Assembly: GCF_021287045.1 (NCBI RefSeq)
Contig: NZ_JAJTBG010000005.1
Span: forward strand, 233,795 to 297,794
DNA length: 64,000 bases
Reading direction: 5' to 3'
From: Oryzomicrobium sp.
GTDB lineage: Bacteria; Pseudomonadota; Gammaproteobacteria; Burkholderiales; Rhodocyclaceae
The position numbers were made by a program, and so were the translations under genes. The number at the start of each line of letters is the position of its first letter. Within the stretch, counting starts at the first letter, position 1. Below are positions 2,374 to 21,980 of this stretch, in pieces. Below the pieces are notes generated by a model that searched no databases, was not told the DNA's origin, and saw only the letters and a list, made by a program, of their open reading frames with translations.

Positions 2374-2388
2374 GTCGTTCTCCCTCGG

Positions 2389-4163: not shown

Positions 4164-5129
4164 TTAGCCCGCCTGTTGCAAGGCGTGCCACATTTCCTTG
4201 TCCCGTTCCGCCGTCCAGATGCGCGGGTGCTTGATGCCGCTGGCCTCGTCCACTGCCCGGGTCACGTCGAAGGGCAGGCAGTGCTCGTAGATGAAGACCT
4301 GGGCGAACTTGGGGTCCATGGCCTTGCGGATGTGGGCCATGGCCTGGTTGAGGGTGAGGCCCTGGGCCACCGCCTCCTTGGCGCCGGCGAACAGGGTGCT
4401 GACGAAGTCCCGGGTGTAGGCCAAGCCCTCGGCCACCTTGGCCGGGGTGTCCAGGGCCGGGCCCCGGCCGGGGATGAGCTTTTCCGCGCCCAGGGCGGCG
4501 ATGGCGTCCAGGGTGGCGGGCCATTCCTCGAGCTGGGCGTCGCCGGTGTAGCAGGCCGCCTCGCACTCCACCAGGTCGCCGGAGAACAGCACCTTCTCGG
4601 AAGGCACCCAGACCACGGTGTCGCCCTTGGTGTGGCCGGGGCCCAGGTGCATCACCTTGATCTCGACGCCGCCCATGAACAGGGTCATCTCGTCCTTGAA
4701 CACCAGGGTCGGCCAGGTCAGGCCGGGGATGCTCTCGAAGGCCTGGAACAAGCGGGGGAAACGCTCGTACTCGGACTGCATGTCCTGGGCGCCGCGCTCG
4801 ACGATCAGCTCATAGGTGCCCTGGCTGGCGATGATCTGCTCCAGGCCCTCGGGCTTGTAGCCGGCGGCGCCGAGCACGCGCACGGCGTGGTAGTGGGACA
4901 GCACCACGTGCTTGATCGGCTTGTCGGTGACCTTGCGGATCTCGGCGATCAGGCGGCCAGCCATCACCGGGGTGGCCAGGGCGTCCACGATCAGGACGCC
5001 CTCGTCGGTGATGATCACGCCGGCGTTGGGGTCGCCCTCGGCGGTGTAACCCCAGCAATGCTCGGACAGCTGGGTGAAGGTGGTCTTCTTCTCTTCGAGG
5101 TCGGCGACGGAGGCGAATTGCTTGCTCAT
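4164..5129 (-). CDS. MBL-fold hydrolase with altered metal motif
   Basis: Metallo-beta-lactamase-fold protein of 321 residues. Fold features include ITDEGVLIVDALATP (strand and turn near residue 40-54), the metal loop at 79-84, HLGPGHTKGD (His ligand) and VLFSGDLVE (bridging Asp). The usual HxHxDH motif reads H79-Y-H81-A-V-R84, so the Asp and third His that build the second metal site are replaced by Val and Arg. A mononuclear site or a non-hydrolytic role is therefore likely. AGGAG precedes the ATG. It lies between the hemerythrin-LivF fusion and the monooxygenase on the same strand. It might open a lactone or thioester in the aromatic pathway, which is inference from context only. Confidence 0.8.
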   Translation of the reverse strand: MSKQFASVADLEEKKTTFTQLSEHCWGYTAEGDPNAGVIITDEGVLIVDALATPVMAGRLIAEIRKVTDKPIKHVVLSHYHAVRVLGAAGYKPEGLEQIIASQGTYELIVERGAQDMQSEYERFPRLFQAFESIPGLTWPTLVFKDEMTLFMGGVEIKVMHLGPGHTKGDTVVWVPSEKVLFSGDLVECEAACYTGDAQLEEWPATLDAIAALGAEKLIPGRGPALDTPAKVAEGLAYTRDFVSTLFAGAKEAVAQGLTLNQAMAHIRKAMDPKFAQVFIYEHCLPFDVTRAVDEASGIKHPRIWTAERDKEMWHALQQAG

Positions 5130-6472: not shown

Positions 6473-6496
6473 CTAGTTGTCTCCCTCTCCCGTTGC

Positions 6497-7261
6497 CTAG
6501 GCGTGGGCGCCCAGGTAGGCGGCGATCACGTCCGGGTTGCGCCGCACTTCCTCGCCGGTGCCCTCGGCCAGCTTCTTGCCGTAATCGAGCACCAGGATGC
6601 GGTCGGACAGGTTCATCACCATCTTCATGTCGTGCTCCACCAGCACCACGGTGACGCCGGAATCGGCCACCTTGCGCACCAGTTCGTCCACCTCCAGGGT
6701 TTCCTTGGGGTTGAGGCCGGCGGCGGGCTCGTCGAGGAACAGCAGGCGCGGCTTCATGGCCAGGGCCCGGGCGATCTCCAGGCGCTTCAGGGCGCCATAG
6801 GGCATGCAGTCGGCCCGGGAGCCGACGTACTTCTCCAGGCCGACGAAGGCCATCAGTTCGGCGGCCTCCTGGCGCAGCTGGCGGTCCCGGCCGGCCAGGC
6901 CGGGAAAGCGCAGGGCGGCCTTGATCAGGTTGCGGTCGAGGCGCAGGTGGGCGCCGACCATGACGTTCTCCAGGGCGCTCATGTTCATGCACACCTGGAG
7001 GTTCTGGAACGTGCGGGCGACACCGCGCCGGGCCAGTTCGTTAGGCGACTTGCCGGCCAGGTTCTCGCCGTCGAGGACGATCTCGCCCTCGCTCGGGGTA
7101 TAGACCCCGGTGATCAGGTTGAACAGGGTGGTCTTGCCCGCCCCGTTGGGGCCGATCACCGAATAGACGATGCCGGCGTCGATGGAGAAGCTGACGTTCT
7201 GCACGGCCTTGACGCCGCCGAACACCTTGGACAATTGACGGACTTCGAGCAGGGGCATCAT
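6497..7261 (-). CDS. livG: ABC transporter ATP-binding protein LivG
   Basis: First cytoplasmic ATPase of a branched-chain amino acid-type (HAAT) ABC importer, 254 residues. Walker A GPNGAGKTT, the Q-loop region and LLFLDEPAAGLNP are visible. The C-terminus has the LivG-type extension (RNPDVIAAYLGAHA). The signature motif reads PYGALKRLE rather than LSGG, a variation common in LivG proteins. The start ATG overlaps the livM stop (ATGA). In this family the same architecture imports aromatic acids, and the neighbouring paa genes favour an aromatic substrate. Confidence 0.92.
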   Translation of the reverse strand: MMPLLEVRQLSKVFGGVKAVQNVSFSIDAGIVYSVIGPNGAGKTTLFNLITGVYTPSEGEIVLDGENLAGKSPNELARRGVARTFQNLQVCMNMSALENVMVGAHLRLDRNLIKAALRFPGLAGRDRQLRQEAAELMAFVGLEKYVGSRADCMPYGALKRLEIARALAMKPRLLFLDEPAAGLNPKETLEVDELVRKVADSGVTVVLVEHDMKMVMNLSDRILVLDYGKKLAEGTGEEVRRNPDVIAAYLGAHA

Positions 7262-8190
7262 TCGCTCCTTCCCAGCTTGGCGGCCAGGGTGGGCACCAGG
7301 CCCTTGGGCAGGAAAATCATGCAGAGCATGAGGATGGCGCCGAAGGCCACCGTCTCCCAGCCTTCGAAGGTGGCGAGGGCCTGGGGCAGGGCGGTGAGCA
7401 GCACGGCGCCGACCACGGAGCCGTACACCGAGGCCATGCCGCCGATCACCACCATGGTGACCAGCTCGATGGAGTGGAAGAAATCGGCCACGTTGGGGGT
7501 GACGAAGCCGACGTAGTGGGCGGTGACGCTGCCCATGATCGAGGCGAACACCGCCGACATGACGAAGATGGCGACCTTGTAGCGGACCACGTCCACCCCC
7601 ACCACCTGGGAGGCCACTTCCGAGCCGTGCAGGGCGCGCAGGGCGCGGCCGAAGGGCGAATCGATCAGGTTGAGGGAGGCCCACACGCTGATCGACAGCA
7701 CCAGGGCCATCACCCAGTACCAGGCCTTCTCGCCGGCGATCTCCCAGCCGGCCAGGCTCATCGGCACCACCGGCATGCCGTCCGGGCCGCCGGTGTAGGC
7801 GGCCTCGTTCTTCATGGCGATGGCCAGGATGAAGCCCAGGCCCAGGGTGGCCATGGCCAGGTAGTGGCCCTTCAGCTTGAAGATGGGCCGGGCCACCAGG
7901 GCGGCGAGCAGGCCCGCCGCCGCCGCGCCGGCGGCCATGGCCGCCAGGGGGGGCCAGTTGAAGTGGCTGGTGAGGATGGCCGAGGCGTAGGCGCCGATGC
8001 CGATGAAGCCGGCGTGGCCCAGGCTGATCTGGCCGGCGAAGCCGATCAGCAGGTTGAGGCCGAGCACGATCACGGCGTTGATGGCCATGCGGATGACCAG
8101 GTCGTAGTGGAAGCCGTTCTGCAAAAACAGGGGCAGCACCAGCAGCACGGCGACGATCACCGCCAGGCCGAAGTAACGGGATTTGCGCAT
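7258..8190 (-). CDS. livM: ABC transporter permease LivM
   Basis: Inner-membrane permease of the HAAT-type importer, 310 residues. The start chosen is the ATG at 8190 (MRKSRYFGL), which opens a hydrophobic first helix. The longer frame upstream is out of keeping with the family and overlaps livH. The LivM signature GFAGQISLGHAGFIGIGAYASA is present in the first third. Hydrophobic segments continue to the C-terminus, which ends in FLPKGL. It is two bases from livH and overlaps livG by four, so it belongs to the livHMGF operon. Confidence 0.93.
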   Translation of the reverse strand: MRKSRYFGLAVIVAVLLVLPLFLQNGFHYDLVIRMAINAVIVLGLNLLIGFAGQISLGHAGFIGIGAYASAILTSHFNWPPLAAMAAGAAAAGLLAALVARPIFKLKGHYLAMATLGLGFILAIAMKNEAAYTGGPDGMPVVPMSLAGWEIAGEKAWYWVMALVLSISVWASLNLIDSPFGRALRALHGSEVASQVVGVDVVRYKVAIFVMSAVFASIMGSVTAHYVGFVTPNVADFFHSIELVTMVVIGGMASVYGSVVGAVLLTALPQALATFEGWETVAFGAILMLCMIFLPKGLVPTLAAKLGRSE

Positions 8191-8192
8191 GG

Positions 8193-9068
8193 TCACACCC
8201 GATCCGTGACTTTGGCGCCGAACAGGCCCCGGGGCATGAAGAAGAGGATCAGCAGGATCAGCACGAAGGGCACCGCGTCCTTGTAGGCCGACGAGATGTA
8301 GCCGGCGGCCATGGCCTCCACCACCCCCACCAGCAGGCCGCCGAGCACGGCCCCCAGGCCGTTGCCCAGGCCACCCACCACCGCGGCGACGAAGCCCTTG
8401 AGGCCGAGCATGATCCCCACGTCGTAGGAGGTCAGGGTGATCGGCGTCACCAGGATGCCGCCCAGGGCGCCCAGGGCCGCCGACATGGCGAAGCTGATGA
8501 ACAGCACCCAGTTGGTGTTGATGCCGACCAGCTCCGAGGCCAGGCGGTTGTACGAAGTGGCCAGCATGGCCTTGCCGTACAGGGTGCGGTTGAAGAAGTA
8601 CCAGAGGCCCACCACCACCAGGGCGGTGACGCCCAGCACCCACAGGCTCTGGGGTTGCAGGGTGGCGCCCAGCACCTCGATCGGCTCGTTGCCGGAGAAG
8701 GCCGGCAGGGAGAAGGTGCCCTTGCCCAGCCAGACCTGGATCAGGCCGCGGATCACCAGGGAGGCGCCGATGGTGATGATGATCAGGGTCACCGTCTCGG
8801 CCCCCTTGACCGGTTCGATGGCCAGCTTTTCCACCACCACGCCAACCACGGCAGGCACCAGGATCGCCAGGGTCAGGGCCACCGGCATGGGCAGGCCCAT
8901 CTGGGAGAAGAACACCGCGAGCATGCCGCCGAGCATGATGAATTCGCCCTGGGCGAAGTTGATCACGTTGCTGGCGTTGTAGATCAGGGTGAAGCCCAGG
9001 GCGGCCAGGGCGTAGGTGGCGCCGACGGTGACCCCGGAAAAGAGGAATTGCAGGAACTGGGCAAGCAT
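8193..9068 (-). CDS. livH: ABC transporter permease LivH
   Basis: Inner-membrane permease of the HAAT-type importer, 291 residues, and the first gene of the minus-strand operon. The typical LivH opening GVTVGATYALAALGFTLIYNA and the NFAQGEF motif are present near the N-terminus. The start is taken at ATG 9068 because it gives the family length; a GGGGGG tract lies just upstream. An in-frame TTG at 9089 would add seven residues. Substrate binding would be provided by LivK, encoded 12 kb away at 21981. Confidence 0.92.
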   Translation of the reverse strand: MLAQFLQFLFSGVTVGATYALAALGFTLIYNASNVINFAQGEFIMLGGMLAVFFSQMGLPMPVALTLAILVPAVVGVVVEKLAIEPVKGAETVTLIIITIGASLVIRGLIQVWLGKGTFSLPAFSGNEPIEVLGATLQPQSLWVLGVTALVVVGLWYFFNRTLYGKAMLATSYNRLASELVGINTNWVLFISFAMSAALGALGGILVTPITLTSYDVGIMLGLKGFVAAVVGGLGNGLGAVLGGLLVGVVEAMAAGYISSAYKDAVPFVLILLILFFMPRGLFGAKVTDRV

Positions 9069-9187
9069 CACAGCCCCCCGTTCGCGCAAGCGATGGCGGC
9101 CCGGCGGCGGGCCTGGTTTGTCTCCTTCATGTGACCTCCTTTTTTGTGGCGGGCAGTCAGCGGCTGGTCCCGAGCCTCCCGAAACTC

Positions 9188-9294: not shown

Positions 9295-10104
9295 CTACAT
9301 TTTCGGCCCCGGCGGCTGGCCCGTGTGGCCCAGCCGGCTCGACAGATCGGCGGCGGCGGTGCGCAGGGCGCGCACCACCTTGCCCTCCGCCGCCATGTCG
9401 AACATGCCCTGCACCCCCACCACCAGCATGGCGATGGTCAGCTCGCCCTTGAAGTTGAACACCGGTGCCGCCAGGGCCTCGACCCCGGGCACCAGGTAGT
9501 AGCCGGACACGGCGGCGAAACCGTCCCGGCGCACCGCGTCGAGCATGGCGCGCACCTTGGGCCAGGTGCGCAGGTCGTCGGGCAGCTCCGGATTGGCCAT
9601 CTCGCGCTCGATCAGGGGCCGCACCGCCTCCTCGGCCAGGTAGGCGGCGAAGACCCGGCCGCTGGCCGAGGTGAGCATTTCCAGGGCGGTGCCGGTGACC
9701 ACGTTGACCGTGATCGGCCGGCGCGGCCGTTCCCAGCGCACGATCACCGGGCCGTGCTCGCTCCACACCGCCAGGGCGGTGGTCTCGTTGATCTCGTCGC
9801 GCAAGGCGGCGATCGCCGCCAGGCCGAGGCGGATGCGGTCGAGCCGGTCGATGGAGACCAGGCCGACGTTGAGGGCGAAGGAGCCCAGGTCGTAGCGGGA
9901 GGTGTGGGGGTCCTGTTCCACCAGGCCGGAGCGGATCAGGCTGACCAGGTAGCGGTGCACCTTGGAGGCGGGCATCCCCGCCGCCGCCGCGATGTCCTTG
10001 AGGGCCATGGAGCGCTGGCCGTTCACCATCACCCGGAAGATGTCCATGCCGATCTCCAGGGACTGGACCCCGTGTTTGCCGTCGGACTCGTCACTCATGC
10101 GCAT
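9295..10104 (-). CDS. IclR family transcriptional regulator
   Basis: DNA-binding regulator of 269 residues. The N-terminal winged helix-turn-helix (SMALKDIAAAAGMPASKVHRYL, about residues 31-52) is followed by a C-terminal effector-binding GAF-like domain typical of IclR proteins, containing TALAVWSEHGPVIVRWE and SGRVFAAYL. Such proteins control aromatic-acid operons in response to pathway acids or CoA esters. It sits between the livH operon and divergent paaY, with a perfect IclR-like palindrome in the divergent gap. It is probably autoregulatory and controls paaY and possibly livH. A second in-frame ATG is two codons downstream. Confidence 0.9.
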   Translation of the reverse strand: MRMSDESDGKHGVQSLEIGMDIFRVMVNGQRSMALKDIAAAAGMPASKVHRYLVSLIRSGLVEQDPHTSRYDLGSFALNVGLVSIDRLDRIRLGLAAIAALRDEINETTALAVWSEHGPVIVRWERPRRPITVNVVTGTALEMLTSASGRVFAAYLAEEAVRPLIEREMANPELPDDLRTWPKVRAMLDAVRRDGFAAVSGYYLVPGVEALAAPVFNFKGELTIAMLVVGVQGMFDMAAEGKVVRALRTAAADLSSRLGHTGQPPGPKM

Positions 10105-10147: not shown

Positions 10148-10176
10148 TTATGCCATTCCCCCAGGAGACTCACACC

Positions 10177-10803
10177 ATGTCCAGCGCCCCCACCCTCCGC
10201 GTCTACGCCATCGACGGCATCGTCCCGGTGGTCGATCCCAGCGCCTTCGTCCATCCCAGCGCCGTGCTGATCGGCGACGTCATCGTCGGCCCGGGCTGCT
10301 ACGTCGGCCCCGGCGCCAGCCTGCGCGGCGACTTCGGCCGGCTGATCCTGGAGGCCGGCGCCAACCTCCAGGACACCTGCGTGATGCACGGTTTTCCCGG
10401 CACCGACACGGTGGTCGAGGAGGACGGCCACATCGGCCACGGCGCCGTGCTGCACGGCTGCCGCATCGGCCGCAACGCCCTGATCGGCATGAACGCGGTG
10501 ATCATGGACAACGCCGTGGTGGGCGAGGCGGCCATCGTCGCCGCCTGCGCCTTCGTCAAGGCCGGGGCGGAAATCCCGGCCCGGCACCTGGCCGCCGGGG
10601 TGCCGGCCAAGGTGGTGCGGGAATTGAGCGAGGAGGAGATCGCCTGGAAGGTGGCGGGCACCCGCACCTACCAGGATCTGACCAAGCGCTGCCTGGCCAC
10701 CCTGGTGGAAACCGCGCCGCTGGCCGCAGTGGAGCCGGACCGGCCGCGCATCCACATCTCCGGCGTGGTGCCCCTGGTGGAGGCCAAGCAGGGCAAGGGT
10801 TAA
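10177..10803 (+). CDS. paaY: PaaY-like hexapeptide-repeat protein (thioesterase/gamma-carbonic-anhydrase fold)
   Basis: Left-handed beta-helix protein of 208 residues with repeated hexapeptide turns ([43 protein letters not shown]). Metal-ligand histidines fit the gamma-carbonic anhydrase pattern ([13 protein letters not shown]). PaaY acts in phenylacetate degradation as a rescue thioesterase that removes dead-end CoA esters. The start at 10177 has AGGAG upstream and matches the family length (about 196 residues in E. coli); a longer in-frame start at 10150 lacks this. It is convergent with paaX and close to the other paa genes. Confidence 0.88.
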
Positions 10804-11119: not shown

Positions 11120-12076
11120 CTACAGGGCGATGGCGGCGAGGGGATCGTCGTCCGGGAAGCGGTCGGCGAAGGACGGGTCCAGGGGCGGAAAGCCCCCGTC
11201 GGCCAGGCGCAGGTGCGCTTGCAGGTGGCGCTCGGAAGGCTCCACCAGGCGCCGGTAGAGGTCGCGGCAGAGCAGCCGGGCGCGCTGGCCGGGCCAGTCC
11301 GGCGGCAGCAGCACGTCGGGCAGCTCCGGGTCGCGCAGCAGCATGCGCCGGTAGTCGTGGATGAGCAGGATGCGCAGCAGGAAAGCCTCTTCGTCCCCCA
11401 CCTCGGCGTGCCGGTCGCGGCGCAGGTCGGCCAGGATCGGCAGGTAGGTGGCGACGAACTCGCCGTAGTCGGCGGCCAGGTCCTCCAGGTCCCAGGCGCG
11501 GCGCACCAGGTCGGCGTCGTTGGCCGACAGGCCCGAGAGGGAATCGGCGGCCAAGAGCGGCATCAGCCGGCCGAGGAAGTCGGCCATGCCCTCGGCCACC
11601 AGGGCGTCCAGGGCCGCGGTCAGGTCGGCGCTGGGGTGTACGAAGCAGTCCGCCCCCAGAGCGCCGAAGCCCTGCCAGAACAGGGCGTTGCGCAGCCGTT
11701 CCCGCTCCCGGGGGTCGAACTCGCCCACCGCCAGGATCAGGCGCCAGCGCCGATCCCACTGGGGGGCGTGGGAGGAATAGATGTGCCGCGAGGCTTCCTC
11801 GAAGCGGCGGTGGCCGGCCGGGGTCAGTTCGTAGTCGGCGCGGCGGCCCTTGGCCTCGGCGCGCAGCCACTCGTCCTTGGCCAGGCGGAACACCGAGGTG
11901 CGCACCAGCCGTTCGGACAGTTCGAGGGGTTCGAGCAGGCGGATCAGGCTGCCCAGCCAGATGCGGCCGCCGTGGGGCAGCACTGCGTCGCCGAACACGG
12001 AGGTGATCAGGGACCCCGCCTGGACGCGGCGCTGCTGGCGGAAGGCATCGAGGCGACGGCGGATGGATTCGGTCAC
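11120..12076 (-). CDS. paaX: PaaX family phenylacetyl-CoA-responsive repressor
   Basis: Transcriptional repressor of 318 residues, the length of E. coli PaaX. It has the PaaX N-terminal winged helix (AGSLITSVFGDAV, GGRIWLGSLIRLL, ERLVRTSVFRL), the central FWQGFGAL region, and the C-terminal LLIHDYRRMLLRDPELP and LLPPDWPGQRAR motifs that are hallmarks of the family. PaaX normally releases DNA on binding phenylacetyl-CoA, so its presence argues that a phenylacetyl-CoA-like ester is the signal here. The start is GTG at 12076 and lacks a clear Shine-Dalgarno. The likely targets are the divergent promoters at 14483-14738. Confidence 0.93.
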   Translation of the reverse strand: MTESIRRRLDAFRQQRRVQAGSLITSVFGDAVLPHGGRIWLGSLIRLLEPLELSERLVRTSVFRLAKDEWLRAEAKGRRADYELTPAGHRRFEEASRHIYSSHAPQWDRRWRLILAVGEFDPRERERLRNALFWQGFGALGADCFVHPSADLTAALDALVAEGMADFLGRLMPLLAADSLSGLSANDADLVRRAWDLEDLAADYGEFVATYLPILADLRRDRHAEVGDEEAFLLRILLIHDYRRMLLRDPELPDVLLPPDWPGQRARLLCRDLYRRLVEPSERHLQAHLRLADGGFPPLDPSFADRFPDDDPLAAIAL

Positions 12077-12236: not shown

Positions 12237-13286
12237 TCAGGCCGACAGCAGGTGGGCCGGGTCGGCCACCTCGATCTGCTGCTGGGAGAAGAAGCCTTCG
12301 GTGTGCAGCATATCGTCGCGCACCCCCAGGGCCTTGGCGGCGGCGACGCAGGCGTCGGTGAATTCCGGGCTGCCGGCGACGAACACGGTGTGCTTGGACA
12401 GGTCCGGGTAGAGCTTGGGCAGCAGGGCGTCCAGACGGCCGTGCAGGTAGCCCTCGGCCTCTTCCCGGGTCAGGGTCACCTTGTAGTCGAAGTTGCGGTG
12501 CTTGGTGCGCCACCAGGCCATCATGCCCTGGCTGTAGACGTCGTCCCGGGTGCGGGCCGAGAAGAGCAGGTTCACCGGCTTGCGGTAGCCGCGGCGCAGG
12601 GCCGCCTCGGCCAGGGCCAGGATCGGCGCCAGGCCGGTGCCGGCGGCCAGGCACAGCACCGGGGCGTCCACCGAGGGGTCGCCGATGAAGGTGCCGTAGG
12701 GGCCGGAAATCTTGACGTTGTCGCCCACCTTGAGGCTGTCGTGAATCCAGGCGCTGGTCAGGCCGCCGTCGGCGCGGGCCACCTGGAGCACCAGCTCGCC
12801 GTCGGGGCGGGGGGCGTTGGAAATCGAATAGGCGCGGGCCGGGATGTCGGCGCCGGGGTTGCCGATGGTGACGTACTGGCCGGGCCAGTAGCGCAGCGGC
12901 GGCGCCACCGGGCGCAGGCGCAGTTCCATCACCCGGTTGGCGATGAGGCGCTTGTCCACCACCACGAACAGGGCGTTTTCCTTGGGCGGGAAGAGCTTGG
13001 GCCGGGCGTCCTCGGTGCCCCACTCGATCACCAGCTCGTCGGAGATCGGCTTGGCCATGCACATCAGGCCGTAACCCTGGCGGCGCTCGTCGGCGGACAG
13101 GGCCATGTCGAGGACGATGCCCTGGTCGAATTGGCCGGACAGCACCTTGACCTTGCATTCGCCACAGGCGCCGGCCCGGCAGTTGTTGGGCAGTGCGTAG
13201 CCCGCATTCTCCAGGGCCATCAGGACGGTGTCGCCGGAGCGGCATTCGACCGCGCGGCCGGAAGGTTGCATGACGATACGGGCCAT
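12237..13286 (-). CDS. Ferredoxin-NAD(P)H reductase, N-terminal [2Fe-2S] type (oxygenase reductase component)
   Basis: Electron-transfer protein of 349 residues. Residues 1-90 are a plant-type ferredoxin with cluster ligands C36, C41, C44 and C76. Residues about 105-205 form the FAD domain with RAYS (151-154), and residues 205-349 the NAD(P)H domain with AGTGLAP (215-221). The ferredoxin-first order is that of phenol hydroxylase, methane monooxygenase and benzoate dioxygenase reductases. PaaE has the ferredoxin at the C-terminus, and BoxA carries 4Fe-4S clusters, so this is neither. It lies 101 bases behind the diiron protein gene on the same strand, making it the obvious electron donor. GGAGAG precedes the ATG. 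Confidence 0.9.
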   Translation of the reverse strand: MARIVMQPSGRAVECRSGDTVLMALENAGYALPNNCRAGACGECKVKVLSGQFDQGIVLDMALSADERRQGYGLMCMAKPISDELVIEWGTEDARPKLFPPKENALFVVVDKRLIANRVMELRLRPVAPPLRYWPGQYVTIGNPGADIPARAYSISNAPRPDGELVLQVARADGGLTSAWIHDSLKVGDNVKISGPYGTFIGDPSVDAPVLCLAAGTGLAPILALAEAALRRGYRKPVNLLFSARTRDDVYSQGMMAWWRTKHRNFDYKVTLTREEAEGYLHGRLDALLPKLYPDLSKHTVFVAGSPEFTDACVAAAKALGVRDDMLHTEGFFSQQQIEVADPAHLLSA

Positions 13287-13329
13287 GGAACGTCTCTCCT
13301 CGTTGCTTTTATCGGTTTCTCTTGGGGTG

Positions 13330-13357
13330 AAAGGGCCGGCCACCCGGCCGGCCCTTT
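13330..13357 (-). promoter_or_regulatory. Strong intercistronic hairpin between diiron and reductase genes
   Basis: Perfect 12-bp stem (AAAGGGCCGGCC at 13330-13341, complement at 13346-13357) with a four-base loop. It has no proper T run, so partial termination or mRNA processing and stabilisation is more likely than full termination. It would allow more diiron protein than reductase to be made. Confidence 0.55.
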
Positions 13358-13387
13358 CGGTACTGCGCGCTGCCGGCTGGGCGGCGA

Positions 13388-14416
13388 TCAGAACACCGGG
13401 ATGATGTCGTCCATCTCGACGTCGCTGATTTCCTTGCCGGTGATGCCCACTTCGGGGATCGCCGGGAACTCGATGCCGTAGCGGTCGAGCACGCCCTTCA
13501 GGTTGAGCATGGCGTTGCGCCAGTTTTCCAGCTTCATCTCGTAGGTCGGGATGCCGAAGCCAGCCATGCGCGCCACTTCCTCGGCTTCGCGCTGGGTGGC
13601 GATGAAGTCGGAGGGCAGGTCCCAGAACTCCATCGGCGGCTCGAACAGCACGGCCGAGAGGAACAGATAGCCGGCGCGGATCTGCTTGGTCACCACGTCC
13701 TTGTTGGCCTGGTTGAGCTTGGGATAGTCGCGCTCCATCACCGCCATGCAGATGGCCATGTGTCGGCCTTCGTCCCGGCCGATGTTGCGGAAGCCTTCCT
13801 TGAAGACCGCTTCCCGGGAGTTGTCGTACATCTGCTTGAAGATGGTGGCGGCGGCGATCTCGCCCATCAGGAAGGAGCTGAACAGCACGGCCAGGTCGTA
13901 CTTGGGCACGGCCTGCTTGTAGCCGGTCCAGTAGCGGCCGCCGTTGAAGTACAGCCACTTGGCGTTCTTCTGCAGACGGCGGCCCAGATCGGTCTTGGGC
14001 TCGTAGGTAATGGGATCGGGGTGGGCGAGCAGCTTGGTGATGGCCAGGCCGCACATGATTTCGTGGTTCTGCTCGTCGCGGGTCACGGAGAAGAAGCACT
14101 TGCGCACCGGATCTTCTTCATGGACCTCGTAGGTCTTGATCAGGGCCTCGGCGAAGACCGGGGGGGCGGACGCGTCGAACACCGACAGCAGGGTCCACCA
14201 GTAGGCGATCGCCTCGCGCTCTTCCCAGGAATAGCTGTCCACGTCCAGGGTGTCCCAGGGCAGCTTTTCGGGGTCCCAGTTCTCGCGCAGGGCGGCTTCC
14301 CAGACTTCTTGCAGCTTCTTGGTGTGGGAGTGCCAGGACAGGGGGTAGACGTTCGGTTGCTGAGTCTCGGGCGGGAGCTCCATCGAATCGGAAAAACGTT
14401 CCTTGTGGTTTGCCAT
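13388..14416 (-). CDS. Ferritin-like diiron oxygenase candidate replacing PaaABC
   Basis: Soluble 342-residue helical protein with a carboxylate-bridged diiron signature: E115-x-x-H118 (RDEQNHE) and E216-x-x-H219 (RDEGRHM), with E90 (VFAE) and E186 (FLMGE) as the remaining carboxylates. The E186-to-E216 distance of 30 fits the ferritin/R2/AurF-type four-helix bundle. It is not PaaA (no sequence match, different length) and not BoxB (which is about 470 residues). It belongs to a ferritin-like group I cannot name. The GGAGGAG site fixes the start at 14416; an upstream in-frame extension of 21 residues is unlikely. It is divergent from paaN and followed by a matching reductase. The inferred role is O2-dependent attack on an aryl-CoA or aryl acid feeding PaaG and PaaN. 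Confidence 0.8.
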   Translation of the reverse strand: MANHKERFSDSMELPPETQQPNVYPLSWHSHTKKLQEVWEAALRENWDPEKLPWDTLDVDSYSWEEREAIAYWWTLLSVFDASAPPVFAEALIKTYEVHEEDPVRKCFFSVTRDEQNHEIMCGLAITKLLAHPDPITYEPKTDLGRRLQKNAKWLYFNGGRYWTGYKQAVPKYDLAVLFSSFLMGEIAAATIFKQMYDNSREAVFKEGFRNIGRDEGRHMAICMAVMERDYPKLNQANKDVVTKQIRAGYLFLSAVLFEPPMEFWDLPSDFIATQREAEEVARMAGFGIPTYEMKLENWRNAMLNLKGVLDRYGIEFPAIPEVGITGKEISDVEMDDIIPVF

Positions 14417-14482
14417 ATCTCCTCCAGCTATGTGTGGGTTCAAGGTGCCCGGCCGAGCGTCGTCACCCGTGCCGTCCAATTC

Positions 14483-14511
14483 ATCATGTTACCTACAAAA
14501 TCGTTTGTCAA
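14483..14511 (-). promoter_or_regulatory. Promoter of the diiron-reductase operon
   Basis: On the minus strand TTGACA (14511-14506), 17 bases, then CATGAT (14488-14483), about 65 bases upstream of the ATG. The spacer ends in TTTTGTAGGTAAC, resembling TTTTGTAAC in the opposing paaN promoter. This makes it a candidate shared PaaX operator. Confidence 0.55.
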
Positions 14512-14709
14512 CGTTTTTTGTATCGTATTTTTTGGCTAGGCAGCGGGCGACGAATCGGAACCCGGCGTTTTCCGCCCCTCTTCCCCCCCCCTCGCCATGG
14601 GCCTTGAACAGCCACAAAGCGGCATGAACACGTTATTCCGGGCCATTCCGGGGATGAGCCGCCGCGGGTGTGCCAGTTTCCTGTCCGCCGCTCGATATGA
14701 TACAAACCA

Positions 14710-14738
14710 TTGACACGGAGTAACTCGTTTTGTAACGT
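14710..14738 (+). promoter_or_regulatory. Promoter of the paaN operon
   Basis: TTGACA (14710-14715) with a poor -10 TAACGT (14733-14738) 17 bases later, about 88 bases before the start. GTAAC occurs twice as a direct repeat in and after the spacer (14720-14724 and 14732-14736). A weak -10 fits a promoter under activator or repressor control. The rest of the divergent gap (14417-14825) shows no coding sequence. Confidence 0.5.
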
Positions 14739-14825
14739 GTAATTCATGCCCTTCCCCATCGGGGTCCTGGGCACCACTGATTACCAGGCCCTCGCGCCCA
14801 CCCCAACGGAAAGATGGAGACAACG

Positions 14826-16487
14826 ATGGTTCACCCCCTGTTCGAAAAGCATCGGGCCACCCTGGACGGCGCCCTGGCCGCCATCCAGAGCCGCGGCTAC
14901 TGGTCCGCCTACGCGGAAATGCCCAGCCCCAAGGTCTATGGCGAGACCGCCATGGACGACGGCAAGCGCGCCTTCGAGGCCCACCTGGGCAAGCGCTTCG
15001 AACTGGACCAGCCCGGGACGACCGGCTGGGCCGGCGACGAGGCCTCCCCCTACGGCCTGCCGCTGCGCGTCTCCTACCCGCAATGCGACCCCCAGGCCCT
15101 GATCGACGCCGGCCTGGCGGCCATGGTCGGCTGGCAGAAGATCGGCGCCGCCGGCCGCGCCGGGGTCTGCCTGGAAATTCTCGACCGCCTCAACAAGCAG
15201 AGCTTCGAACTGGCCCACGCGGTGATGATGACCACCGGCCAGGGCTGGATGATGGCCTTCCAGGCCGGCGCCCCCCACGCCCAGGACCGGGGCCTGGAGG
15301 CGGTGGCCTACGCCTGGCGCGAGCAGAGCTTCGTCCCCGCCGAGGCACGCTGGGAGAAGCCCCAGGGCAAGAACCCGCCCCTGGTGATGCAGAAGCACTT
15401 CGAGATCGTCGGCCGAGGCGTGGCCCTGGTGATCGGCTGCGGCACCTTCCCCACCTGGAACACCTACCCGGGCCTGTTCGCCGCCCTGGGCACCGGCAAC
15501 CCGGTGATCGTCAAGCCGCACAGCAACGCCATCCTGCCGGCGGCCATCACCGTGCGCACCATCCGCGCCGTGCTGGCGGAAAACGGCATCGACCCCAACC
15601 TGGTGACCCTGGCGGTGATCCCCCAGCGCGCCGCCACCCAGCAGCTGGCCACCCACCCGGCGGTGAAATCCATCGACTTCACCGGCGGCAACACCTTCGG
15701 CCAGTGGCTGGTCGACAACTGCCGCCAGGCCCAGGTCTATGCCGAGCTGGCCGGGGTGAACAACATCGTGGTCGATTCCACCGACGCCTACCGGGCCATG
15801 CTCAAGAACCTGGCCTTCACCCTGTCCCTCTACTCGGGCCAGATGTGCACCACCTCCCAGGCCCTGTTCGTCCCCGCCGGCGGCATCGACACCGACGAGG
15901 GCCACAAGAGCTTCGACGAGGTGTGCGCCGACCTGGCCGGCGCCATCGACGCCTTCCTGGCCAAGCCGGAAGTGGCCACCGCCGTACTCGGCGCGATCCA
16001 GTCCGCCGACACCCTCAACCGCATCGCCAGCGCCCCGTCCCTGGGCAAGGTGGTGCTCGACTCGAAGAAGATCGCCAACCCCGAGTTCCCCCTGGCCGAG
16101 GTGCGCACCCCGGTGCTGCTGGCCTGCGACGCCACGGACGAGGCCGCCTACATGGAAGAGCGCTTCGGCCCGATCAGCTTCGTCGTCAAGGTGGCCGACA
16201 CCGCCGCCGGCATCGCCCTGTCGGAGCGGGTGGTGCGCCAGCACGGCGCCCTCACCGTGGGCCTCTACTCGACCCGCCCCGAGGTCATCGACGCCATGAC
16301 CGAAGCCACCTGGCGCGGCAAGGTAGCCCTGTCGATCAACCTCACCGGCGCCGTGTTCGTGAACCAGTCGGCGGCCTTCTCCGACTACCACGGCACCGGC
16401 GGCAATCCGGCGGCCAACGCCTCCTACGCCGACTCGGCCTTCGTCGCCAACCGCTTCCGCGTCGTGCAGCGGCGCTACCACGTCTAA
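14826..16487 (+). CDS. paaN: PaaN/PaaZ-type ring-opening aldehyde dehydrogenase (no hydratase domain)
   Basis: Aldehyde dehydrogenase-fold enzyme of 553 residues matching the PaaN branch of phenylacetate degradation proteins. In the pathway it oxidises the semialdehyde made when the oxepin-CoA ring is hydrolysed. The catalytic Cys is C341 (SGQMCTTSQ), the general-base Glu is in YAELAGVNN, and the N-terminus HPLFEKHRATLD is typical. Unlike E. coli PaaZ (681 residues), there is no C-terminal MaoC-like hydrolase domain, so ring hydrolysis needs another enzyme. The start at 14826 is preferred over 14814 because GGAGA lies just upstream. It is the first gene of the plus-strand paa operon and ends ten bases before paaG. 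Confidence 0.88.
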   Translation: MVHPLFEKHRATLDGALAAIQSRGYWSAYAEMPSPKVYGETAMDDGKRAFEAHLGKRFELDQPGTTGWAGDEASPYGLPLRVSYPQCDPQALIDAGLAAMVGWQKIGAAGRAGVCLEILDRLNKQSFELAHAVMMTTGQGWMMAFQAGAPHAQDRGLEAVAYAWREQSFVPAEARWEKPQGKNPPLVMQKHFEIVGRGVALVIGCGTFPTWNTYPGLFAALGTGNPVIVKPHSNAILPAAITVRTIRAVLAENGIDPNLVTLAVIPQRAATQQLATHPAVKSIDFTGGNTFGQWLVDNCRQAQVYAELAGVNNIVVDSTDAYRAMLKNLAFTLSLYSGQMCTTSQALFVPAGGIDTDEGHKSFDEVCADLAGAIDAFLAKPEVATAVLGAIQSADTLNRIASAPSLGKVVLDSKKIANPEFPLAEVRTPVLLACDATDEAAYMEERFGPISFVVKVADTAAGIALSERVVRQHGALTVGLYSTRPEVIDAMTEATWRGKVALSINLTGAVFVNQSAAFSDYHGTGGNPAANASYADSAFVANRFRVVQRRYHV

Positions 16488-16497
16488 GGAGGGCGCC

Positions 16498-17289
16498 GTG
16501 AGCTTCGAAACCATCGCCTTCGCCGTCGAGGCCGGCATCGCCCGCCTCACCCTGAACCGGCCCGACCGGCTCAACAGCTTCACCGACCGGATGCACGAGG
16601 AAGTGCGCGCAGCCCTGACCCGGGTCGAGACCGACCCGGCAATCCGCGTCCTGGTGCTGGCCGGGGCCGGCCGGGGCTTCTGTGCCGGCCAGGACCTGAA
16701 CGACCGCTCGGTTTCCGCCGGCGACGCCGCCCCGGACCTGGGCGCCTCGGTGGAAAAGAACTACAAGCCCCTGGTGCTGCGCCTGCAGAACCTGCGCGTG
16801 CCCACCGTCTGCGCCGTCAATGGCGTGGCCGCCGGGGCCGGGGCCAGCCTGGCCCTGGCCTGCGACGTGGTGGTGGCGGGCCGCTCGGCCAGCTTCCTCC
16901 AGGCTTTCTCCAAGATCGGCCTGATCCCGGACACCGGCGGCACCTGGTTCCTGCCCCAGCGCGTCGGCATGGCCCGGGCCATGGGCCTGGCCCTGCTGGC
17001 GGAAAAGCTGCCGGCGGAAAAGGCCGCCGAATGGGGCCTGATCTGGCAGTGCGTGGACGACGCCGAGCTGGCCGCCACGGTGGACGCCCTGGCCGCCCAG
17101 TTCGCCAGCGCCCCGACCCGGGCCCTGGTGCGCACCCGCCAGCTGATGCGCGCCTCCATGAGCCAGGACCTGGCCGCCCAGCTCGACGCCGAGCGCGACG
17201 CCATGCGCGAGCTGGGCCAGTCGCCGGACTACCGGGAAGGCGTGGCCGCCTTCATGGAAAAGCGCGCGCCGCGCTTCACGGGGCAGTGA
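16498..17289 (+). CDS. paaG: 2-(1,2-epoxy-1,2-dihydrophenyl)acetyl-CoA isomerase PaaG
   Basis: Crotonase-fold isomerase of 263 residues. In the paa pathway it converts the ring epoxide of phenylacetyl-CoA to oxepin-CoA and shifts double bonds later. It carries the PaaG-specific segments AGAGRGFCAGQDLNDR, GVAAGAGASLALACD and KIGLIPDTGGTWFLP, and the C-terminal DYREGVAAFMEKRAPRFTG, which closely matches E. coli PaaG. The start is GTG with AAGGAGGG at ideal spacing. Its presence implies that the pathway makes an aryl-CoA epoxide. It overlaps paaH by one base (TGATG). Confidence 0.93.
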   Translation: MSFETIAFAVEAGIARLTLNRPDRLNSFTDRMHEEVRAALTRVETDPAIRVLVLAGAGRGFCAGQDLNDRSVSAGDAAPDLGASVEKNYKPLVLRLQNLRVPTVCAVNGVAAGAGASLALACDVVVAGRSASFLQAFSKIGLIPDTGGTWFLPQRVGMARAMGLALLAEKLPAEKAAEWGLIWQCVDDAELAATVDALAAQFASAPTRALVRTRQLMRASMSQDLAAQLDAERDAMRELGQSPDYREGVAAFMEKRAPRFTGQ

Positions 17290-18833
17290 TGAGCACCGCC
17301 ACTGCTGCCCCCCTGCCCTCCTCCGCCCCGGTGGCGGTGGTCGGCGCCGGCGCCATGGGCGCCGGCATCGCCCAGGTGGCGGCCCTGGCCGGCCATCCGG
17401 TGCGCCTGCTCGACAACCGCCCCGGCGCCGCCGCCCGCGCGGTGGACGAGTTGCGCGCCACCCTGGCCAAGCTGGCCGCCAAGGGCAAGCTCGACCCCGC
17501 CCAGGCCGATGCCGCCGCATCGCGCCTCGCCGCCGTCGACTCCCTCGACGGCCTGGCCGACGCCGCCCTGGTGGTGGAAGCCATCGTCGAGAACCTGGAA
17601 GCCAAGCGCGCCCTGTTCCGCGACCTGGAAGCCCGGGTCGGCGAGCACTGCCTGTTCGGCACCAACACCTCGTCGATCTCGGTCACCGCCATCGCCGCCG
17701 GGTTGGCCCGGCCAGAGCGCCTGGCCGGCCTGCACTTCTTCAACCCGGCGCCGCTGATGGCCCTGGTGGAGATCGTCAGCGGCCTGGCCACCGCCCCGGC
17801 CGTGGCCGACACCCTGTTCGCCACCGCCGCCGCCTGGGGCAAGACCCCGGTCCACGCCCGCTCCACCCCCGGCTTCATCGTCAACCGGGTGGCCCGCCCC
17901 TACTACGCCGAGGCCCTGCGCCTGGTGAGCGAGGGCGCCGCCGACACCGCCACCCTGGACGCCCTGTACCGGGAGGCCGGCGGTTTCCGCATGGGGCCCT
18001 TCGAGCTGATGGACCTGATCGGCCACGACGTGAACTTCGCCGTCACCTCGTCGGTGTGGAAGGCCTACTACCACGACCCGCGCTTCACCCCCTCCCTGGT
18101 CCAGGAAGAACTGGTCAACGCCGGCTACCTGGGGCGCAAGAGCGGGCGCGGCTTCTACGCCTACGGCGAAGGCGCAAGCACAGCGGCTGCGGCCCCGGCC
18201 AGCGCCGCCGCGGCGCCCTGCCCGGCCAAGATCACCCTGTTCGGCGCCAGCCCGGCGGCCAACGCCCTGGCTCAGCGCCTGAGTGCTGCCGGGGTGGCCC
18301 ACGGCCGCAGCCCGGCGGCCGACGACGGCCGCCTGGCCGAGGCCGACGGGGCGGTGCTGTACGTCACCGACGGGCGCACCGCCACACGTCGGGCGGCGGA
18401 AAGCGGCGTGGCGGCGACGGTACTGATCGATCTGGCCCTGGACTACGCCGCCGCCCCGCGCCTGGCCCTGGCCTGCGCCCTGCAATGCCCCGAGGCGGTG
18501 CGCGCGGCGGCGATCGGCCTGCTCCAGGCCGCCGGGTTCGCGGTGGCGGAGCTGGCCGACGTGCCCGGCCTGGCGCTGATGCGCACCGTGGCCATGCTCG
18601 CCAACGAGGCCGCCGACGCGGTGAACCAGGGCGTCTGTTCCCCTGACGCGGTGGACGCGGCGATGCGCCTGGGCACCAACTACCCCTGCGGCCCCCTGGC
18701 CTGGGCCGAACGCGTCGGCCCGGCCGCCGTGGTGGCCGTGCTGGGCCACCTGGCCGCCACCTACGGCGAGGACCGCTACCGGATTTCGCCCTTCCTGCAA
18801 CAACGGGTTCACGCCGGAAAGGACCTGCATTGA
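17289..18833 (+). CDS. paaH: 3-hydroxyacyl-CoA dehydrogenase PaaH
   Basis: NAD-dependent 3-hydroxyadipyl-CoA dehydrogenase of the paa beta-oxidation steps, 514 residues. The N-terminal Rossmann motif is GAGAMGAGIAQ. NTSSISVTAIA, GLHFFNPAPLMALVE and STPGFIVNRVARPYY are classic for the family. Residues about 190-290 form the first helical domain. After an Ala-rich linker (about 295-315) comes a second degenerate Rossmann-like part and a second C-terminal helical domain (MLANEAADAVNQGV, NYPCGPLAW), as in PaaH proteins. It is translationally coupled to paaG and paaI (overlaps of one base). Confidence 0.93.
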   Translation: MSTATAAPLPSSAPVAVVGAGAMGAGIAQVAALAGHPVRLLDNRPGAAARAVDELRATLAKLAAKGKLDPAQADAAASRLAAVDSLDGLADAALVVEAIVENLEAKRALFRDLEARVGEHCLFGTNTSSISVTAIAAGLARPERLAGLHFFNPAPLMALVEIVSGLATAPAVADTLFATAAAWGKTPVHARSTPGFIVNRVARPYYAEALRLVSEGAADTATLDALYREAGGFRMGPFELMDLIGHDVNFAVTSSVWKAYYHDPRFTPSLVQEELVNAGYLGRKSGRGFYAYGEGASTAAAAPASAAAAPCPAKITLFGASPAANALAQRLSAAGVAHGRSPAADDGRLAEADGAVLYVTDGRTATRRAAESGVAATVLIDLALDYAAAPRLALACALQCPEAVRAAAIGLLQAAGFAVAELADVPGLALMRTVAMLANEAADAVNQGVCSPDAVDAAMRLGTNYPCGPLAWAERVGPAAVVAVLGHLAATYGEDRYRISPFLQQRVHAGKDLH

Positions 18834-19327
18834 TGAGCCACTCCCACACCTCCCACGACCCCCAGGCCGCCCAGCAGTTGGCCGAGGCGGTCGCCGACGC
18901 CATGTGGTCCCGGGACCAGGCCACCCGCACGCTCGGCATGCGCCTGGTCAGCGTCGGCCCGGGCCGGGCCACCCTGGCCATGACGGTGCGCCCGGACATG
19001 ACCAACGGCCATGCCATGTGCCACGGCGGGCTGATCTTCACCCTGGCCGACAGCGCCTTCGCCTACGCGTGCAATAGTTACAACCTGAACACGGTGGCCT
19101 CGGCCTGCCACATCGACTTCCTCGCCCCGGCCAAGGTTGGCGACGAGCTGGAAGCCGAGGCGGTGGAACGTTCCGCGTCGGGCCGCACCGGGGTCTACGA
19201 CATCACCGTGCGCAACCGCCACGGCAAGACCGTCGCCCTGTTCCGGGGCAAGTCGTACCGTATCAGCGGCGAGGTGATCGCCGGCCTGGCGGGCGCCGCC
19301 GAGACCACCACGAGCCGCCATTCCTAA
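18833..19327 (+). CDS. paaI: PaaI hotdog-fold thioesterase
   Basis: Acyl-CoA thioesterase of 164 residues with the hotdog motif MCHGGLIFTLADSAFAYACN (the catalytic Asp is in TLAD) and the second strand VASACHIDFLAPAKVGDELE. PaaI removes hydroxylated phenylacetyl-CoA by-products to free CoA, a repair role in the paa pathway. It starts one base inside the paaH stop (TGATG) with AAGGA upstream. An in-frame TTG precedes it and is unlikely to be used. It lies between paaH and paaK in the same operon. Confidence 0.92.
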   Translation: MSHSHTSHDPQAAQQLAEAVADAMWSRDQATRTLGMRLVSVGPGRATLAMTVRPDMTNGHAMCHGGLIFTLADSAFAYACNSYNLNTVASACHIDFLAPAKVGDELEAEAVERSASGRTGVYDITVRNRHGKTVALFRGKSYRISGEVIAGLAGAAETTTSRHS

Positions 19328-19365: not shown

Positions 19366-20691
19366 ATGCCTGTGAAGCAGCCCCAACCCGGCGACCTGGA
19401 GCCGATCGAAAAGGCCAGCCGCGACGAGATCGCCGCCCTGCAACTCGAACGGCTCAAGGCCACCCTGCGCAACGCCTACGAGAACGTCCCCCACTACCGC
19501 AAGAAGTTCGACGAGGCGGGGGTCCATCCCGAGGACCTGAAGACCCTGGCCGACCTGGCCAGGTTTCCCTTCACCACCAAGCACGACCTGCGCGACAACT
19601 ACCCCTTCGGCATGTTCGCCGTGCCGCGGGAGAAGGTCGCCCGGGTGCACGCTTCGTCCGGCACCACCGGCAAGCCGACGGTGGTGGGCTACACCCTGAA
19701 GGACATCGACACCTGGGCCAACCTGGTGGCGCGCTCGATCCGCGCCGCCGGCGGCCGCCCCGGCGACATGGTGCACGTGGCCTACGGCTACGGCCTGTTC
19801 ACCGGCGGCCTGGGCGCCCACTACGGCGCCGAGCGGGCCGGCTGTACCGTGGTACCCATGTCCGGCGGCCAGACCGAAAAGCAGATCCAGCTCATCCAGG
19901 ACTTCAAGCCGGACATCATCATGGTGACCCCGTCCTACGCCCTGGTGATCGCCGAGGAGTTCATCAAGCAGGGCCTGGACCCGGCCGCCTGTTCGCTCAA
20001 GGTCGGCATCTTCGGCGCCGAGCCCTGGGGCGAGGGGATGCGCGCCGAGATCGAGCGCAAGCTCGGCATCGACGCCATGGACATCTACGGCCTGTCCGAA
20101 GTGATGGGCCCCGGCGTGGCCAGCGAATGCATCGAATCCAAGGACGGCCCGGTGATCTGGGAGGACCACTTCTACCCCGAGATCATCGACCCCTCCACCG
20201 GCGAAGTGCTGCCCGACGGCAGCGAGGGCGAGCTGGTGTTCACCTCCCTGTCCAAGGAGGCGATGCCGATCATCCGCTACCGCACCCGGGACCTGACCCG
20301 CCTGCTGGCCCCCACCTCGCGCAGCTTCCGGCGCATGGGCAAGATCACCGGCCGCTCCGACGACATGCTGATCATCCGCGGCGTGAACGTCTTCCCCACC
20401 CAGATCGAAGAGCAGATCCTGCGCGAGACGCGCCTGTCCGGGAACTACCAGCTGGTGGTGACCCGCTCCGGCCTGCTCGACGAGCTGGAGGTGCGCTGCG
20501 AGCTGCAACTGCCCCAGTCCGGCATCCTCTCGGCCGGCGAGATCCAGGCCATCGCCAAGACCTTGCAGCACCAGATCAAGACCCTGATCGGCGTGTCCTC
20601 CAAGGTCACGGTGCTGGAGTTCGGCCAGATCCCGCGCACCCAGGTGGGCAAGGCCAAGCGCGTCATCGACGAACGCCAGCAGCGGGGATAA
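19366..20691 (+). CDS. paaK: Phenylacetate-CoA ligase PaaK
   Basis: AMP-forming aryl-CoA ligase of 441 residues, the usual PaaK length (437 in E. coli). It activates phenylacetate or an analogue to its CoA thioester with ATP. Visible motifs are YENVPHYRKKFDEAGV, the P-loop ASSGTTGKPTVVGYT, GAEPWGEGMR, the adenylate-binding IYGLSEVMGPG, YRTRDLTRLL, and the hinge GRSDDMLIIRGVNVFPTQIE. The C-terminal domain has the lysine region TQVGKAKRVID. It opens the pathway and supplies the CoA ester expected to be the PaaX inducer. Its fit to PaaK makes phenylacetate the leading substrate. Confidence 0.94.
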   Translation: MPVKQPQPGDLEPIEKASRDEIAALQLERLKATLRNAYENVPHYRKKFDEAGVHPEDLKTLADLARFPFTTKHDLRDNYPFGMFAVPREKVARVHASSGTTGKPTVVGYTLKDIDTWANLVARSIRAAGGRPGDMVHVAYGYGLFTGGLGAHYGAERAGCTVVPMSGGQTEKQIQLIQDFKPDIIMVTPSYALVIAEEFIKQGLDPAACSLKVGIFGAEPWGEGMRAEIERKLGIDAMDIYGLSEVMGPGVASECIESKDGPVIWEDHFYPEIIDPSTGEVLPDGSEGELVFTSLSKEAMPIIRYRTRDLTRLLAPTSRSFRRMGKITGRSDDMLIIRGVNVFPTQIEEQILRETRLSGNYQLVVTRSGLLDELEVRCELQLPQSGILSAGEIQAIAKTLQHQIKTLIGVSSKVTVLEFGQIPRTQVGKAKRVIDERQQRG

Positions 20692-20694: not shown

Positions 20695-21912
<1,218 letters not shown>

Positions 21913-21956: not shown

Positions 21957-21980
21957 ACCACTTGAGTGGAGGAGACACCC

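Follow-up and report, generated by a model that had tools for sequence, protein, structure and literature searches.

A diiron protein and its reductase as a candidate alternative to the PaaABCE epoxidase in betaproteobacterial phenylacetate clusters

In the common aerobic phenylacetate pathway, phenylacetyl-CoA is epoxidized by the multisubunit diiron enzyme PaaABC(D)E, after which PaaG acts. A precedent for a different design is BoxAB, the benzoyl-CoA 2,3-epoxidase, in which a single-chain diiron aryl-CoA epoxidase is served by a reductase. PaaA and PaaC have been proposed as genomic markers for aerobic phenylacetate degradation; the final filter of that survey retained ligases adjoining PaaABCDE, and “other configurations” without the epoxidase are also listed (PMC13186573). 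Here, we analyze a stretch of 64,000 nucleotides (64 kb, hereafter the window) from Oryzomicrobium sp. (contig NZ_JAJTBG010000005.1, positions 233,795 to 297,794), in which an open reading frame for a 342-residue candidate diiron oxygenase of ferritin-like, R2-like type (13388..14416, minus strand, translated without an internal stop) is followed, after 86 bases, by an open reading frame for a 354-residue reductase (12237..13301, minus strand). The interpretation of this pair as an alternative two-component aryl-CoA epoxidase within the phenylacetate pathway is well supported by the absence of PaaA, PaaB, and PaaC, by clustering with paa genes, by a recurrent, complementary absence of PaaABC in relatives, and by common promoter motifs. 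We consider it probable that the 342-residue protein (below, the diiron protein) is a diiron phenylacetyl-CoA 1,2-epoxidase that consists of one subunit and can take the place of PaaABCE, phenylacetyl-CoA and its 1,2-epoxide being the proposed substrate and product.

The genome that contains the window (3.91 Mb, 26 contigs, 98.66% complete) yielded no match to the PaaA/PaaC family (PF05138) at E ≤ 0.001 and no match to PaaB (PF06243), which rules out a PaaABCDE enzyme encoded elsewhere in it. The genus has one other representative in the sample, assembled as a single 3.5-Mb contig, and it likewise yielded neither PF05138 nor PaaB. A preliminary description of the locus had reported that paaA, paaB, and paaC are missing from the window; the whole-genome search extends this to the entire assembly, and the reductase of the pair is not PaaE (130 bits against 421 required). 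The genes paaN, paaG, paaH, paaI, paaK, and paaJ run divergently from the pair, while paaX and paaY lie on its other side. The pair is the only candidate found for the epoxidation step in its own genome.

A scan of GTDB contigs returned 528 stretches encoding a relative of the diiron protein, and the best 80 (83–90% identical) were kept as loci extending up to 10 kb on each side, with a paa gene counted at ≥55% identity. A reductase gene is located beside the diiron gene in 79 of the 80 loci (the exception, L105, ends at a contig edge), at least one paa gene is present in 72, and paaG or paaN in 62. A chance neighborhood in one strain is ruled out, since the same arrangement occurs across dozens of loci, and the pair genuinely belongs to many phenylacetate clusters of Betaproteobacteria. 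The eight loci without a paa gene come from three Achromobacter, four Azoarcus/Thauera-type, and one Burkholderiaceae genome. In four loci (L043, L059, L079, and L084), PaaZ replaces PaaN as the partner, the copy in L059 being cut by the contig end; in L084, the pair and paaG are accompanied by a bona fide PaaZ (978 bits, cut-off 563). No match to paaA–E was obtained within these four stretches (9–21 kb, 21 kb in the case of L084), to which that search was confined.

Among 150 related genomes (own included), a full-length homologue was found in 13, with one partial (G042) and one weak (G092) match besides. Seven of the 13 carriers have no PF05138 match (G000, the window's own genome, and G001, G013, G019, G032, G053, and G062), and in all seven, paaN adjoins the diiron gene or lies within 10 kb of it. 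An order-wide sample of 349 genomes (own included) contained seven full-length carriers, two of which have PaaA/PaaC; all seven encode PaaG above its cut-off, which is true of 62 genomes in the sample as a whole (hypergeometric p 4e-6, uncorrected for kinship). In a class-wide sample of 321 genomes, the only full-length match was in the window's own genome, and a search of viral contigs led nowhere. Named relatives among the matches listed are mostly Betaproteobacteria, with Insolitispirillum (Alphaproteobacteria) and Nonomuraea (Actinomycetota) in addition. On Variovorax plasmids (L034–L036), a homologue 52–53% identical by BLAST is found in paralogous catabolic clusters together with a reductase, an AMP-dependent ligase, an ECH protein, a thiolase, and a Liv transporter; a PaaN-like gene is present in L035 and L036, a MaoC-type protein in L034, and a “dehydratase” in L035. 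The annotation of L034 and L035 also includes an indolepyruvate ferredoxin oxidoreductase family protein (L036 is unannotated), and these clusters may possibly encode an aryl-pyruvate or aryl-acetate pathway.

The relationship between the pair and PaaABC was evaluated by searching PF05138 in the genomes of 50 of the 80 loci, which were picked by hand and include some metagenome-assembled genomes; PaaA/PaaC were scored as missing when no match was stronger than E 1e-40. By this measure, true PaaA/PaaC are missing in 21 of the 50 carrier genomes, and every one of the 21 has the pair in a locus with paaG or paaN. Eighteen of them gave no match at E 0.001, while G185, G189, and G198 have weak matches (E 3e-7 to 9e-5). 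Isolates in this group are Brachymonas denitrificans, Dechloromonas hortensis and Dechloromonas denitrificans, two strains of Azonexus hydrophilus, Insolitispirillum peregrinum, and three Castellaniella. In genomes outside this group, eight places with similarly weak PF05138 matches correspond to open reading frames of 473–474 residues; both of those scanned are BoxB. A further 16 genomes combine a paaG/paaN locus with PaaA/PaaC, and PaaA/PaaC were found in all 13 genomes whose locus lacks both paaG and paaN (Fisher p 2e-4, or 1e-3 after dropping L070, L088, and L099, which adjoin paaABCDE; both values uncorrected for kinship). PaaB followed the same pattern, being absent from 10/10 genomes with the diiron protein only (own plus nine carriers, five of the nine single-contig) and present in 8/8 genomes with PaaA/PaaC (six carriers and two non-carriers). 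When mapped on the tree of diiron proteins, in which 16 of 48 forks are open, the PaaABC state requires a minimum of 10 changes, five of which are forced by well-supported branches. The result implies that PaaABC was lost or gained repeatedly among carriers. Finally, in the order-wide sample, where PaaA/PaaC matches were cut at E 1e-15, strong PaaA/PaaC are lacking in five of seven PaaG-positive carriers versus 16 of 55 PaaG-positive non-carriers (p 0.04).

A separate observation concerns three loci, L029 (8192–8929), L030 (8201–8905), and L031 (7959–8663), each of which encodes a short, divergent PF05138 protein near paaN, directly before paaG in L029 and L031. Both strong PaaA/PaaC and a match to the diiron protein are absent from these genomes. 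The L031 protein has 234 residues and scores 57 bits with TIGR02156 (cut-off 280). Perhaps these proteins represent a third type of epoxidase.

The diiron protein contains the pattern D/E–ExxH–E–ExxH of ferritin-like diiron proteins on four helices. The motif given in the preliminary description, E115xxH118, E186, and E216xxH219, is exactly as reported and, together with D81, does not vary across 43 close sequences or across a set of 13 in which identity falls to 48%. D81 is likely the sixth R2-type ligand; in an hhalign alignment, it is matched by an invariant Glu of remoter ferritin-like relatives. An AlphaFold2 model built from a 43-row alignment (mean pLDDT 82.6, pTM 0.85, with residues 81–90 averaging only ca. 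64) places the six ligand residues on predicted helices 64–97, 102–130, 175–199, and 203–233. In a Foldseek search, the top PDB matches among the 50 listed were R2lox and R2 proteins (probability 0.99–1.00, E from 1.5e-3, TM 0.34–0.53), at 11–17% identity and root-mean-square deviations of 5.6–14.3 Å. Since none of them reaches E 0.001, an R2-like fold class is likely, yet a close structure is not known. The predicted fold of the diiron protein is thus R2/R2lox-like, and a center with two irons is presumed.

By sequence, the diiron protein exceeds the cut-off of no family. The nearest in Pfam is AurF (PF11583), with 22.1 bits against a cut-off of 29.6; this family is weakly matched by 13/13 members of the diiron family (best E 9e-6). 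The score with the R2 family (PF00268) is 16.8 bits, cut-off 33.6. A PDB sequence search gave no convincing match, the best (E 0.2 and 0.06) covering short stretches. Profile comparison with hhalign relates the protein to the remoter ferritin-like set at 98.7% probability; of two members of this set that were scanned, L144 passes the AurF cut-off and the other matches nothing. Kinship to BoxB (0.2%) or to PaaA/PaaC (0.6% and 0.4%) was not seen with these shallow alignments (Neff 1.3–1.8), and at that resolution a divergent PaaA, PaaC, or BoxB was ruled out; by the same method, PaaA and BoxB came out as weakly related (E 7e-4, probability 26%). The shallowness of the alignments leaves room for a remote kinship to all three. 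With the BoxB model TIGR03225, the diiron protein is not among the matches at E 0.1, whereas two BoxB proteins reach 920 and 932 bits with it.

The reductase consists of Fer2 (residues 12–85), FAD (122–205), and NAD (218–318) domains defined by Pfam; its ferredoxin domain therefore comes first, as the preliminary description had it. All curated models remain below their cut-offs, BenC being the best (159 bits, cut-off 430), followed by PaaE (TIGR02160, 130 and 421) and BoxA (30 and 459); the MmoC cut-off of 500 bits is not reached either. The best PDB match is 5ogx (E 3.7e-44), which we take to be GcoB. A ferredoxin–FAD–NAD reductase encoded next to the catalytic subunit, as is typical of a two-component oxygenase, is present in the window and in 79/80 loci, and we propose that it acts as a BenC/MmoC-like electron donor for the diiron protein.

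The pair and the paa genes have promoter motifs in common. In Burkholderia cenocepacia, repression of the paaA promoter requires the operator ACCGACCGGTCGGT, and derepression is reported for a mutant in PaaR, a TetR-type repressor (PMC2770484). In several genomes in which the pair and the paa operon are separate, a PaaR-type palindrome (two mismatches or fewer) precedes the diiron gene by 47–190 bases; in L070, L088, and L099, it is found in the interval that separates the diiron gene from paaA. Across 13 whole genomes (11 carriers and two non-carriers), the pattern ACCGACCGGTCRRT has 18 sites, zero to three per genome, compared with three for a backwards-pattern control. It is found upstream of the diiron gene in eight of the 11 carriers (G057, G067, G086, G127, G179, G184, G187, and G188); four sites are directly before paaN or paaA (G044, G057, G067, and G127), four are on the paaA/C contig (G179, G184, G187, and G188), and the remaining two, in G048 and G184, could be assigned to none of these positions. 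The carriers G000, G013, and G016 have none, G016 containing a one-base variant.

A second motif, GATACAAA, was found through k-mer counts. It is present upstream of the diiron gene in 53/80 loci versus 21/3886 background windows, which are mostly coding, and in 100 dinucleotide shuffles it reached a mean of 1.5 and a maximum of 4 of 80. PaaR-like sites are present in 7/80 loci versus 11/3886 windows and in none of the shuffles; no locus has both motifs. Most of the 78 occurrences of GATACAAA in the 80 loci precede the diiron gene, paaN, or paaG (55 sites), and another 14 precede the liv transporter, before a gene like that at 8193–9089 of the window. The window itself holds four: at 9225, before the liv genes; at 14517 and 14699, in the divergent promoter region between the diiron gene and paaN (14417..14813), where the two GATACAAA/TTTGTATC sites are putative regulator sites; and at 60863. 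The eight loci without paa genes carry either a PaaR-like site (L106, L113, L116, and L117) or GATACAAA (L104, L111, L112, and L115). We regard GATACAAA as a putative PaaX site. The PaaX box of E. coli is TGATTC-N26-GAATCA; a box of this type was ruled out for the upstream region in the window, where no clear match was seen.

The proposed reaction can be formulated as follows. NAD(P)H would reduce the FAD and the [2Fe-2S] cluster of the reductase, the reductase would reduce the diiron site of the 342-residue protein to diiron(II), diiron(II) would activate O2, and the epoxide would be transferred to the ring of phenylacetyl-CoA before PaaG acts. One catalytic polypeptide from another branch of the ferritin-like superfamily would then do the job of PaaABC(D)E. 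The metal, the electron path, the substrate, and the product of the pair are what we infer from the locus; likewise, while the two-component aryl-CoA epoxidase of the preliminary description is well supported, its CoA-thioester substrate, 1,2-epoxide product, and role in growth are presumed.

Several results weigh against such a function. PaaA/PaaC are also present in 29/50 sampled carriers and in six of the 13 full-length carriers among related genomes (G016, G057, G067, G076, G086, and G127), so that the “simpler replacement” of the preliminary description is an oversimplification when applied to carriers in general. Where two enzymes would serve one step, some reason for keeping both is called for, be it O2 range, rate, or substrate range. 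In L070, L088, and L099, the pair and paaABCDE are even on one divergent promoter, and such coexistence means that the pair may act on something that PaaABCE does not; the paralogous ligase/ECH clusters of Variovorax, in turn, indicate that the diiron family may handle more than one aryl-CoA. Neither promoter motif is found in 20/80 loci, L041 and L044 among them, and no paa or reductase match lies within 12 kb of the homologue in Nonomuraea, which is 48% identical. In the order-wide sample, 21 of 62 PaaG-positive genomes are without strong PaaA/PaaC; five of these have the diiron protein, seven show a weak match to PF05138, located next to paaG in G030 alone, and nine have neither. PaaG without PaaABC therefore does not in itself call for a substitute and is an imperfect marker. 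In addition, family scans of the window revealed neither PaaF nor an oxepin-CoA hydrolase, a point on which the preliminary description is silent, and the model for an alternative oxepin-CoA hydrolase, NF046063, was above its cut-off in 0/12 genomes, the window's own (G000) and PaaABC-bearing ones included. The oxepin-CoA hydrolase gap is common to PaaABC-bearing relatives.

Frequent coexistence with PaaABCDE, at times on a shared promoter, could be explained if the pair oxygenated a close analogue, whether a hydroxylated or otherwise substituted phenylacetate, the corresponding CoA thioester, or a product of a shunt, which would enter the pathway at the same downstream enzymes, leaving phenylacetyl-CoA to PaaABCE where it is present. 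The Variovorax plasmid clusters, which may serve other aryl-CoA substrates, and Vitreoscilla, where the pair is flanked by a complete paa set on one side and hpa genes on the other, are also in line with this explanation. We nevertheless consider it unlikely. PaaX and PaaR-type operators belong to phenylacetate genes, and 21/50 carriers have no detected PaaA/PaaC to handle phenylacetyl-CoA. Specificity for a substituted phenylacetate, which the preliminary description had entertained, is likewise not favored, because the ligase, isomerase, thioesterase, and thiolase of the window (PaaK, PaaG, PaaI, and PaaJ) and PaaN are above their curated equivalog cut-offs.

It is less probable still that the pair yields another product from phenylacetate or phenylacetyl-CoA, such as 2-hydroxyphenylacetate for a homogentisate-like route through the genes at 1584–5129 of the window. 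Relatives of the FAD monooxygenase and metallo-hydrolase encoded there do lie near the pair in L042, L097, L098, and L107; this amounts to only 4/80 loci, though loci reaching up to 10 kb on each side could miss the module, and PaaG/PaaN, which have no use in this route, accompany the pair far more often (one of them in 62/80 loci). We assign an equally slight probability to the diiron protein being a co-regulated helper (in iron handling, peroxide defense, AurF-like N-oxygenation, or as a radical-generating R2-like protein) instead of a pathway oxygenase. Its closest named families are indeed AurF by profile, with the window's protein below the cut-off, and R2/R2lox by fold; but an oxygenase-type reductase is adjacent in nearly every locus, and a helper would leave the absence of PaaABC unexplained. 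A single-subunit phenylacetyl-CoA 1,2-epoxidase is the function that we prefer for the diiron protein.

The assignments of the remaining genes agree with the gene content of the preliminary description (paaX, paaY, paaN, paaG, paaH, paaI, paaK, and paaJ), with paaH just short of its equivalog cut-off. On the plus strand, paaN, for an aldehyde dehydrogenase (14814..16487; TIGR02288, 926 bits, cut-off 579), is followed by paaG, for 1,2-epoxyphenylacetyl-CoA isomerase (16498..17289; TIGR02280, 398 bits, cut-off 345); paaH, for a 3-hydroxyacyl-CoA dehydrogenase (17283..18833; TIGR02279, 665 bits, cut-off 669, and above the subfamily model NF006124); the thioesterase gene paaI (18830..19327; TIGR02286, 170 bits, cut-off 119); paaK, for phenylacetate-CoA ligase (19366..20691; TIGR02155, 729 bits, cut-off 646); and paaJ/pcaF, for 3-oxoadipyl-CoA thiolase (20695..21912; TIGR02430, 744 bits, cut-off 597). 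Next comes a gene for the substrate-binding protein of a Liv-type ABC transporter, presumably for aryl-acid uptake (21966..23129, plus strand). The top NCBIfam scores of this protein, none of which reaches a cut-off, are with Liv/urea binding proteins, and the gene is linked in relatives. On the other side of the pair are the repressor gene paaX (11120..12076, minus strand; TIGR02277, 273 bits, cut-off 265), paaY (10150..10803, plus strand; TIGR02287, 329 bits, cut-off 320), and a gene for an IclR/PcaR-type regulator (9295..10104, minus strand; TIGR02431, 91 bits, below cut-off).

Liv-type ABC transporter genes, with the GATACAAA site at 9225 in front, occupy 5153..9089 (minus strand); the first open reading frame was identified by a family scan and the others were named by look. 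This first frame (5153–6472, minus strand) encodes a LivF-type ATPase with an N-terminal hemerythrin domain (PF01814, residues 4–138, E 4.8e-17). The fusion is matched near full length in 35 of the 40 loci, among the best 80, that encode an ATPase more than 55% identical. For what is presumed to be an importer of aryl acids, a domain of O2-binding type seems unusual. The module at 1584–5129 (minus strand) encodes a glyoxalase-like protein, a DUF2783 protein, an FAD monooxygenase (NF006002), and a protein of metallo-beta-lactamase fold; besides the four loci named above, relatives of the monooxygenase and the hydrolase occur near paaN in L024.

If the pair is an epoxidase, the common phenylacetate pathway gains a second, simpler entrance, PaaA/PaaC markers overlook many carriers, and a two-protein tool for dearomatizing aryl-CoA thioesters becomes available; the question of why some genomes retain two enzymes for one step is raised as well. 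In the literature searched, which left most subscription journals outside, we recognized no description of the diiron protein in phenylacetate degradation and found nothing on phenylacetate growth of species without PaaABC. Azonexus, Dechloromonas, Castellaniella, Brachymonas, and others are largely facultative denitrifiers. As a tentative idea, somewhat on the doubtful side, phenylacetyl-CoA epoxidation may have arisen twice, with a single-subunit diiron enzyme of the AurF/R2 branch, without detectable kinship to PaaABC, as a full alternative entrance that is repeatedly the sole one in mostly facultative-denitrifier proteobacteria and is perhaps better at low O2. Such an advantage would fit the fusion of a hemerythrin domain, which is of O2-binding type, to the ATPase of the transporter encoded in linkage with the pair.

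In comparison with known systems, the pair resembles PaaABC(D)E in the proposed reaction, in diiron chemistry, in its partners paaG, paaN/Z, paaH, paaJ, and paaK, in PaaR-type operators found in part of the carriers, and in a reductase with ferredoxin, FAD, and NAD domains. It differs in having one catalytic chain instead of PaaA, PaaB, and PaaC, with neither PF05138 nor PaaB, and in the order of reductase domains, the FNR module being first and the ferredoxin last in PaaE. BoxB, at 474 residues, is not similar to the diiron protein at the profile level, and the reductase is not BoxA. R2/R2lox proteins have the same ligand order as the diiron protein and are its best fold matches, yet at low identity and with PF00268 below cut-off, while the AurF-type N-oxygenases are its nearest Pfam family, again below cut-off. 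BenC, MmoC, and GcoB share the ferredoxin–FAD–NAD order with the 354-residue reductase, whose partner in the pair is a ferritin-like protein.

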